Assembly (NCBI GenBank): GCA_014379665.1
Contig: JACMLK010000126.1
Coordinates: 1-5,663, forward strand
Source: Saprospiraceae bacterium
GTDB taxonomy: Bacteria; Bacteroidota; Bacteroidia; Chitinophagales; Saprospiraceae
Direction of reading: 5' to 3'
Length of the DNA stretch: 5,663 nucleotides
Part shown: positions 2,606-3,699 of the stretch, piece after piece
Layout: each line of letters begins with the position of its first letter
Numbering within the stretch: position 1 is the first letter of the stretch
Notes under the pieces: generated by a model
Database searches by the model: none
Told to the model about the DNA's origin: nothing
Seen by the model: only the letters and a program-made list of their open reading frames with translations
Position numbers and translations under genes: made by a program

Positions 2606-3699
2606 AAATTATTGATATAAACAGTTTTTAATCCCTTTAGTAAGGTTATTTTCGTATTAAAGCCCATACCCATCAACTTCCCGCTATCCATCAGCTTCCT
2701 TGGCGTTCCATCCGGCTTGGTAGCGTCAAAAACTAAATCCCCATTGAAACCTACTATATCCTTAATCATCAAGGCCAACTCTTTTATACTCACTTCCTGA
2801 CCGCTACCTATATTGACAAATTGCTCTTCTGAATAATGTTGCATCAGAAAGAAACAAGCTGTGGCCAAATCATCTACATGCATAAACTCCCGGAGTGGTG
2901 CTCCTGTACCCCAAAGGGTGACTTGGGTGGTTGACGTGTTGGCGTGTTGGCGAGTTGGGGTGTTAGCGGGTTGGGTGGTTAAGTTGTTAGTGTTTTGGGT
3001 GATGCCGAATTTAATTAATTTTGTCAATATATCTGCTTCGTCACTTTCACCACCTATACCTTCAATAGGTAGTCGATTGAGATCTTTTCTTAGTGCTTCC
3101 CAATTTTTTTGTTCGAGACATTTTCCCAGGTGCATCTTACGAATCAAGGCAGGTATCACGTGGGATTTCTCCAGGTCATAATTATCTCCCGGACCATAAA
3201 GATTGGTAGGCATCGCTGATATAAAATCACAGCCATATTGTCGTCTGTAATTTTCGCAGAGCTTGATGCCCGCTATTTTGGCAATGGCATAAGGTTCATT
3301 TGTAGATTCCAGAATTCCCGTCAATAAATCTTCTTCCTTCATCGGCTGTGGAGCAAACTTGGGATAAATACACGAACTACCTAAAAAGAGGAGTTTGATC
3401 ACTTTATGTATATAAGCAGCATGTATGACATTGGCTTCTATCATCAGATTATCATATAGAAAATCAGCTCTGTAGGTATTATTGGCCACAATGCCTCCAA
3501 CTTTAGCAGCTGCAAGAAATACATAATCAGGCTTTTCAGCTTTAAAAAATGCATTGACAGCTGCTTGGTCGCGGAGATCTAATTCCTTGGATGACCGCAG
3601 CACCAAATTATCGTACCCTTCAGCTTTTAGTTTTCTCACTATTGCTGAACCTACCATGCCATTATGACCGGCTACGTATATTTTTTTGGTTGTTTGCAT
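2602..3699 (-). CDS. fcl: GDP-L-fucose synthase (GDP-4-keto-6-deoxymannose epimerase/reductase) with a repeat-derived internal insert
   Basis: This short-chain (extended SDR) enzyme performs the 3,5-epimerisation and NADPH reduction that finish GDP-L-fucose, using the product of the neighbouring gmd. From ATG 3699 it is 365 residues. It shows the nucleotide-binding VAGHNGMVGSA (9-19), the catalytic GSSCIYP (107-113; S108 and C110), YAIAK (137-141), LYGPGDNYDLEKSHVIPAL including the likely acid/base His, then WGTGAPLREFMHVDDLA. Before that last motif lies the NWEALRKDLNRLPIEG segment I recall from Bacteroides-type homologues, followed by a 26-residue T/N/Q-rich stretch encoded by 2923-3000 that matches the intergenic 8-bp repeat and is absent from the family as I know it. 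The frame is open upstream to an ATG at 3786, but the 29 extra residues (P/T/Q/N-rich) are translated repeat, so the start immediately before the Rossmann strand is preferred. The stop overlaps the neuB start. Confidence 0.93.
   Translation of the reverse strand: MQTTKKIYVAGHNGMVGSAIVRKLKAEGYDNLVLRSSKELDLRDQAAVNAFFKAEKPDYVFLAAAKVGGIVANNTYRADFLYDNLMIEANVIHAAYIHKVIKLLFLGSSCIYPKFAPQPMKEEDLLTGILESTNEPYAIAKIAGIKLCENYRRQYGCDFISAMPTNLYGPGDNYDLEKSHVIPALIRKMHLGKCLEQKNWEALRKDLNRLPIEGIGGESDEADILTKLIKFGITQNTNNLTTQPANTPTRQHANTSTTQVTLWGTGAPLREFMHVDDLATACFFLMQHYSEEQFVNIGSGQEVSIKELALMIKDIVGFNGDLVFDATKPDGTPRKLMDSGKLMGMGFNTKITLLKGLKTVYINNF
2923..3000 (-). repeat. In-frame 8-bp-repeat insertion inside fcl
   Basis: On the coding strand these 78 bases consist of degenerate C/A-rich 8-9-bp units such as CCAACACG, CCAACTCG and CAACCACC, the same family and orientation as the array half just upstream of fcl. 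They encode 26 residues (T, Q, N, P, A and R-rich) with an eight-residue period, as expected when three 8-bp units are read as eight codons. The consensus unit has no stop codon in any of the six frames. The junctions fall between KFGI and VTLWG, a point where the family already varies in length, so the enzyme may tolerate the loop. Confidence 0.8.

Follow-up and report, generated by a model that had tools for sequence, protein, structure and literature searches.

An Octamer Repeat of the Spacer Type Lies in Frame in a Predicted-Disordered Loop of a Putative Saprospiraceae GDP-L-Fucose Synthase

The gene predicted to encode GDP-L-fucose synthase (fcl) on a 5,663-nucleotide contig of a Saprospiraceae bacterium carries, in frame, a patch of the same octamer repeat that occupies the spacer upstream of it. 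The patch falls within an Fcl loop predicted to be disordered. It was most likely copied from the neighboring spacer array and then likely changed in length by slippage. The identity of the repeat family, the reading frame, the differing repeat families at this one site, the mostly stepwise differences in length between near-identical relatives, and the confinement of the matches to the neighborhood of fcl in a second genome of the genus (G009) are direct observations. According to the relevant portions of two earlier reports, repeats whose unit length is not divisible by three would be expected to avoid the interior of genes (PMC4679880, PMC4692102). Here, such units recur mid-gene in a conserved enzyme, at one place and with units that differ between genomes.

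Results and Discussion

Locus and gene layout

The window, meaning the whole stretch of 5,663 nucleotides, is contig C266 of genome G000 (2.87 Mb, 65% complete). The closest named relatives of its Fcl come from Saprospiraceae MAGs. The features of the window are as follows.

436-1605, minus strand: UDP-GlcNAc 2-epimerase-type gene
1589-2605, minus strand: neuB-type gene
2602..3786, minus strand: fcl, GDP-L-fucose synthase; 365 aa when read from the ATG at 3699 (MQTTKK), 394 aa when read from the more distant ATG
2923..3000, minus strand: in-frame octamer-repeat patch in fcl, 26 residues, 234-259 of the 365-aa form
3001..3135, minus strand: stretch without repeats in the long-form Fcl loop region (MHLGKCLE...KFGI)
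3700..3799, minus strand: octamer array in the fcl 5' spacer, in the orientation of the fcl patch
3803..3896, plus strand: octamer array of the patch's family in the opposite orientation
3898..5007, minus strand: gmd, GDP-mannose 4,6-dehydratase, upstream neighbor of fcl

The open frame of fcl continues upstream of the ATG at 3699 through the spacer array at 3700..3799. The gmd-fcl spacer (3700-3899) holds octamer arrays of both orientations, with the switch at about position 3800, and a long RNA hairpin is predicted for it (z = -3.96). Elsewhere in the window, positions 5250-5663 (open reading frame 5116-5661, minus strand) hold a 21-bp tandem repeat with higher orders of 42, 84, 126, and 210 bp. 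This repeat encodes a 7-residue-type protein repeat (DSTKKYP, DFTK) in a frame that is open to the contig end, and the reading frame has no Pfam match.

The 78-bp patch

Read as the reverse complement, 2923-3000 spans 78 bp, translates in frame to TQNTNNLTTQPANTPTRQHANTSTTQ, and is flanked by KFGI and VTLWG, exactly where the original prediction had placed the patch. Its best period is 8, with a self-match of 66% that was reached by 0 of 2000 dinucleotide-type shuffles. Tandem Repeats Finder reported period 8 at 2930-2974 and at 3703-3750. A second repeat finder placed three loop copies and six spacer copies in one direct-repeat family, defined by an identity of at least 60% to the reference copy. 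The shared period and family confirm that a repeat of the spacer type sits in frame in fcl. The patch also qualifies as a long simple sequence repeat, that is, a tandem unit of 5-11 bp extending beyond chance. No inverted repeat of 14 bp or longer was found inside the patch; the sole pair has one arm in the loop and the other in the distal spacer, 848 nt away.

The ideal window units, GCCAACAC and CCACCCAA, are stop-free in all six frames, and so, on both strands, are 28-45% of random octamers with a GC content of 37-50%. The real loop array contains one and two stops in the other two sense frames and four on the opposite strand. Six-frame openness, which had been proposed to let such repeats colonize coding DNA, therefore holds for the ideal unit but not for the real array, where two of the three sense frames are closed. 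The units CATCCGT, GCTCACA, and AATCAACC of the arrays described below are stop-free on a single strand only. Because the real window patch has only one workable register, a frame filter likely acts.

Identity and predicted structure of the Fcl protein

The window protein scored 219.2 bits against PF01370 (Epimerase/SDR) in two stretches, above the curated cutoff of 20.9. Its best match by far was the NCBIfam equivalog NF047922, at 481.2 bits in two stretches, which is below the 500-bit cutoff. Relatives scored 484.6 bits (P0011) and 421.1 bits (G1221) against this model, and the near miss is probably due to the long loop. The protein has the active-site-type residues S108, C110, Y137, K141, H180, and R187, none of which varies in a 62-row alignment, in agreement with the earlier claim that the catalytic residues are intact; we take the roles of these S, C, Y, K, H, and R residues to be those in E. 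coli Fcl. The top fold matches (7anh, 8ewu, 1e6u, and 1gfs) include E. coli Fcl and Campylobacter heptose reductases. The PF01370 match, the active-site residues, the fold, and the adjacency of gmd argue for an Fcl-like protein, and from these we infer its substrate.

Outside the patch, the window and G009 genes gave a pN of 0.137 and a pS of 0.739, and fcl looks to be under purifying selection there; the window/G009 ratio of 0.048 is indicative only because dS is near saturation. AlphaFold2 modeling of the 365-residue form gave a mean pLDDT of 87.3, with values below 50 at 239-254 and also at 68-71. Blocks 61-80 and 111-140 had pLDDT values of 59-71, so parts of the core are not confidently predicted. 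The G009 protein had a mean pLDDT of 83.8, and its sole segment below 50 was 242-299. The repeat stretch of Fcl is predicted by these models to be disordered.

The loop site in short and long forms

Short-form Fcl proteins have 11 residues between SHV[IL]PALIRK and the strand VxxWG, in place of the long-form segment and linker, and a scan of genome contigs yielded mostly this form. The window Fcl is a long form, with an extra segment that ends in KFGI and is followed by the patch. The patch thus occupies the place of the linker that follows K[FY]GI in array-free long forms, which is unconserved and mostly about 4-14 residues long. In a phylum sample, 16 of 18 non-window long-form loci were parsed, with array-free linkers of 4-14 residues; longer array-free linkers exist, such as that of 18 residues in L274. 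The patch had been described as adding 26 residues in frame. The frame is indeed kept, but the net gain is lower, since array-free long forms already carry a linker. No relatives lacking exactly these 26 residues were found, and the array-free linkers vary in length. Unrelated sequence of the same length at this site in close relatives had been named as evidence against the original prediction; this argument holds only in part, as relatives have unrelated sequence at this point, much of it itself repeat-like and of varying length.

A loop-only query matched 2 of 396 genomes in the window's order (the window's genome and G009), 19 of 395 genomes across the phylum, window included, and 176 of 393 genomes in another order of the class, tentatively taken to be Bacteroidales from the named database relatives. 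Arrays at the Fcl linker are uncommon in broad genome samples. In this second order, 50 loci were taken as the 30 best matches plus 20 picked for long open frames, and 48 of them were parsed. L253 and L260 are clearly 7-periodic, and L252 is 9-periodic with a weaker shuffle test. Of the 20 loci picked for long open frames, 19 were parsed and none had an array loop. L272 was discarded as an array example, since 161 of 2000 shuffles reached its period on a retest after a better first value.

Arrays at the same junction in other genomes

G009, a member of the window's genus, carries a 74-residue octamer array at the identical fcl junction, and the observed period of this loop array was reached by 0 of 2000 shuffles. 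P0014 and P0021 are 99.4% identical to the G009 protein outside the loop, and their loop has 34 residues versus 74. P0013 and P0024, the nearest rows to the window on a loop-free tree (support 80), have a linker of 10 residues that looks like an array remnant. The loops of 74 and 34 residues and the short linkers of P0013 and P0024 indicate that array length varies between close relatives.

Other repeat families occupy the same junction. G1221, a genome of the second order, has a CATCCGT array there (period reached by 17 of 2000 shuffles), a further CATCCGT array, also in frame, in a different loop of fcl, and arrays of this family in two flanking spacers. In other genomes of that order, the junction holds a GCTCACA array in G1311, an AAACTCG array in G1434, and an array of the octamer AATCAACC in G1422, each with a period reached by 0 of 2000 shuffles. 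These three different repeats all come from genomes of one family, f171, in which 5 of 25 genomes gave a long-form match; three of the five (not G1438 and G1429) were read, G1422 being chosen for the length of its open frame. The flanks of fcl that were read in G1311 had no array. A single recent entry of the repeat into fcl, as the original prediction might suggest, does not agree with sister octamer arrays and with unrelated heptamer and octamer arrays at this linker in another order.

A misjoining of spacer reads into fcl during assembly could be suspected from a short contig of an incomplete genome. Such an artifact is extremely unlikely, as junction arrays occur in records of different sources and contigs (P0011, P0014, P0021) and the frame is kept.

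Two further features were observed at these loci. A second Fcl loop, just before [IL]NIG[ST]G, is expanded in L253 (G1221), where it holds the CATCCGT array, and in L314 (G1422), where it holds a long stretch without an obvious repeat. A 23S_rRNA_IVP-type gene (PF05635) lies directly upstream of fcl in G009 (L240:1145-1501) and in G1221 (L253:513-887), with repeat arrays on its flanks in both. A gmd-like gene precedes it in G1221. These two genomes belong to different orders, and the window's gmd-fcl spacer has no such gene.

Periodicity and length steps in Fcl proteins

From 218 Fcl proteins, 155 were parsed as long forms. In 60 nonredundant linkers of at least 20 residues, identity was in excess over shuffles at lag 7 (z = 21), lag 8 (z = 8), and lag 14 (z = 7.5) only, among the lags 2-15 tested. 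When each 85% cluster was represented by a single row, giving 62 linkers of at least 16 residues, the z values were 16.8 at lag 7 and 5.5 at lag 8. The query of the second protein search contained the loop, which biases the array frequency in that set; in the first-search set alone the periodicity stands, with z = 6.3 at lag 7 and z = 11.8 at lag 8. A period of 7 residues is consistent with a 7-bp unit that passes through all three frames; in protein-only rows, where the DNA is unseen, a 21-bp unit would look the same.

Loop length was unequal in 22 of 41 pairs of proteins at least 94% identical outside the loop. The difference was 7 residues in 15 pairs, 14 in one, 40 in two, and 1, 6, 11, and 17 in one each. 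Eighteen of the 22 thus differ by 7, 14, or 40 residues and four fit neither 7 nor 8, in a set of 41 pairs that are not independent of one another. An alternative reading is phase variation, in which the gain or loss of an 8-bp unit shifts the frame and switches fcl, and with it a fucose-bearing surface sugar, off and on. A unit length that is not a multiple of three and the position of fcl within a sugar-nucleotide cluster are in line with such switching. We nevertheless consider it very improbable: the loops read are all in frame (database proteins are in frame by nature, so off-frame alleles would be missed), same-family arrays also fill spacers elsewhere, and the imperfection of the array, with its 66% self-match, should slow slippage.

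Linkers of at least 20 residues are led in composition by T, S, P, Q, A, N, and H despite their differing repeat families. This shared composition would be expected if selection kept the loop as a T/P/Q/N/S-rich disordered linker because of what it does for the protein (spacing, solubility, or contact with a partner, for instance), repeat DNA being only its cheapest encoding. Selection for a flexible linker is quite improbable, however, given that linker length ranges from 4 to 74 residues and differs as much as 34 versus 74 in proteins 99.4% identical outside the loop. Many long forms also have short linkers, and the composition resembles that of translated repeat units.

On a loop-free tree of 34 rows, 29 of them labeled by eye from protein motifs, five repeat classes required at least 10 changes (minimum possible 4; shuffled mean 15.6); 13 of the 31 inner branches of this tree are open forks, its outgroup branches are long, and the outgroup does not form one side of a branch. 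With fewer changes than the shuffled mean, these motif-based classes point to turnover on top of inheritance. The non-tandem pieces CEIAQSPGFRNISQG and CHCEPENSGEAISSK and their variants recur in the Fcl loops of different proteins (P0141, P0145, P0156, P0178, P0190, P0209, and P0215) and look like translated interspersed elements.

Source of the loop arrays

When the G009 array was used as a query, its own genome, with an estimated completeness of 100%, gave three matches, all on C109 within 1.6 kb: the loop, the fcl spacer, and the next spacer. The search covered ten genomes of the genus, and the other members gave three matches in G000, three in G004, five in G005, one in G006, and none in five genomes. 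Confinement of the G009 family to three places at fcl suggests local copying, and it favors the local spread of the repeat that the original prediction had put forward. The window patch used as a query found further G000 arrays on C417, C399, C51, and C182, and the octamer family occurs on five G000 contigs other than the window's. In G1221, 23 matches to its repeat were found, four of them at fcl. The other octamer arrays inspected lie between genes or at gene ends, as judged by eye from open frames. Octamer arrays near position 1501 of L243 (G004) and L239 (G006), from two species of the genus, sit at the start of apparently the same transporter-type gene (by eye). At L245:1501-1615 (G005), an octamer array forms the last codons of an aminotransferase-like gene adjoining a sugar-nucleotide-type gene (by eye).

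TAA-type units account for 3 of 10 units in the window loop and for 0 of 30 units in that of G009 (P = 0.012). In other arrays, they account for 27 of 64 units in G000 versus 4 of 50 in G009 (P = 4e-5; P = 0.015 without C51). By these counts, unit spectra are genome-specific, in the loop and in other arrays alike. The longest word that the window loop shares with its own proximal spacer is 13 bp, and elsewhere it shares 18 bp in G000 (C399) and 15 bp in other species. For the G009 loop, the longest shared word measures 29 bp with G005 arrays and 21-23 bp with its own spacers. Shared exact words were therefore rejected as proof of local copying, the own spacer not being favored over distant arrays, and copying is thus a step that we infer.

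Each loop array may instead have grown in place by slippage from a chance seed of one or two units, without copying from a spacer, and loop and spacer would then be alike because slippage in a given genome favors the same units. A period census on DNA sampled from G000 (389 kb), G009 (608 kb), and G008 (391 kb) revealed assorted unrelated 7-, 8-, 9-, and 11-bp arrays in Saprospiraceae-type DNA, as this explanation would expect. It also accommodates loop words shared with the own spacer that are no longer than those shared across species, and the array-free flanks in G1311. Growth in place is nonetheless unlikely, as all three matches of the G009 family fall in the loop and its two nearest spacers, G1221 has one unit in two separate fcl loops and two nearby spacers, and the genome-specific unit spectra extend from the loop to other arrays. 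In the same G000 material, degenerate 11-bp arrays of the GGATCATGGGA type recur on either strand (L172, L187, L203, L165, and L182).

Proposed mechanism and comparison with known repeats

Copying from a neighboring spacer followed by slippage, our preferred reading, would proceed in three steps. A short array segment would be copied ectopically, through template switching or gene conversion between neighboring arrays. Slippage would then alter the number of units in the loop array. Selection would retain changes of three units, which are 24 bp for octamers and 21 bp for heptamers, because other changes shift the frame. The site may be chosen through tolerance rather than targeting, the K[FY]GI-VTLWG linker having no conserved sequence or length.

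Rickettsia palindromic elements (RPE) are, in the portions of the reports consulted, an intergenic family that also occurs in frame inside genes, with sizes of 25-102 bp in one spacer (PMC1950309), and within genes they typically encode non-structured segments (PMC2996958). The octamer family is similar in that it combines an in-frame gene insertion with intergenic copies. Compared with RPE palindromes of tens of base pairs, as described in those portions, the Fcl arrays have a tandem unit of 7-8 bp, the window patch has no internal palindrome of 14 bp or longer, unrelated families use one site, and length changes in small steps.

Mrazek et al. (2007), as represented in part of a later report, described prokaryotic repeats of 5-11 bp, with heptanucleotide arrays as the commonest class in most genomes and with slippage proposed; units that are a multiple of three were likeliest in coding regions (PMC4679880). 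The Fcl units differ from those coding repeats, so described, in being 7 and 8 bp long and lying mid-gene in a conserved enzyme. The same portion describes TAACTGA heptamers in Beggiatoaceae, Cyanobacteria, and some Bacteroidetes as intergenic arrays of one fixed unit with a proposed translational role, with one set of two inside a putative purC, near the gene end (PMC4679880). The arrays described here likewise include heptamers in Bacteroidetes and, on that account of TAACTGA, differ by their recurrent protein loop and many units. The GGGAATC and GGGGA(C/T)T arrays of Xanthomonas and Nostoc, studied as G-quadruplex DNA, are mostly intergenic with some intragenic cases and are under-represented in coding regions, according to part of the report on them (PMC4692102). 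Unlike these arrays, which are not tied there to one protein site, the Fcl arrays lie at one loop. A literature search, with subscription journals mostly outside its scope, found no report of a tandem repeat or insertion in a loop of GDP-L-fucose synthase, nor of octanucleotide repeats in Bacteroidetes, of intergenic tandem repeats in Saprospiraceae, or of Bacteroidetes tandem repeats that are both intergenic and inserted in frame.

Conclusions

Herein, our analysis suggests that stray spacer DNA has likely entered Fcl many times and would keep altering the length of one loop. The broader proposal is that the Fcl linker is a landing site throughout the phylum Bacteroidota, into which genome-specific 7- and 8-bp arrays of neighboring spacers are repeatedly copied and then turned over as a hypervariable loop filtered for frame; we judge this to be about evenly balanced between true and false. 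In that case, repeat DNA of non-coding origin would undergo constant trial as protein at one fixed position. Should the copying step hold, new protein sequence could be watched directly as it arises from non-coding DNA. The loop would then also serve as a naturally permissive position within an enzyme that has been studied in depth, and as a system for testing how short arrays spread between neighboring sites.
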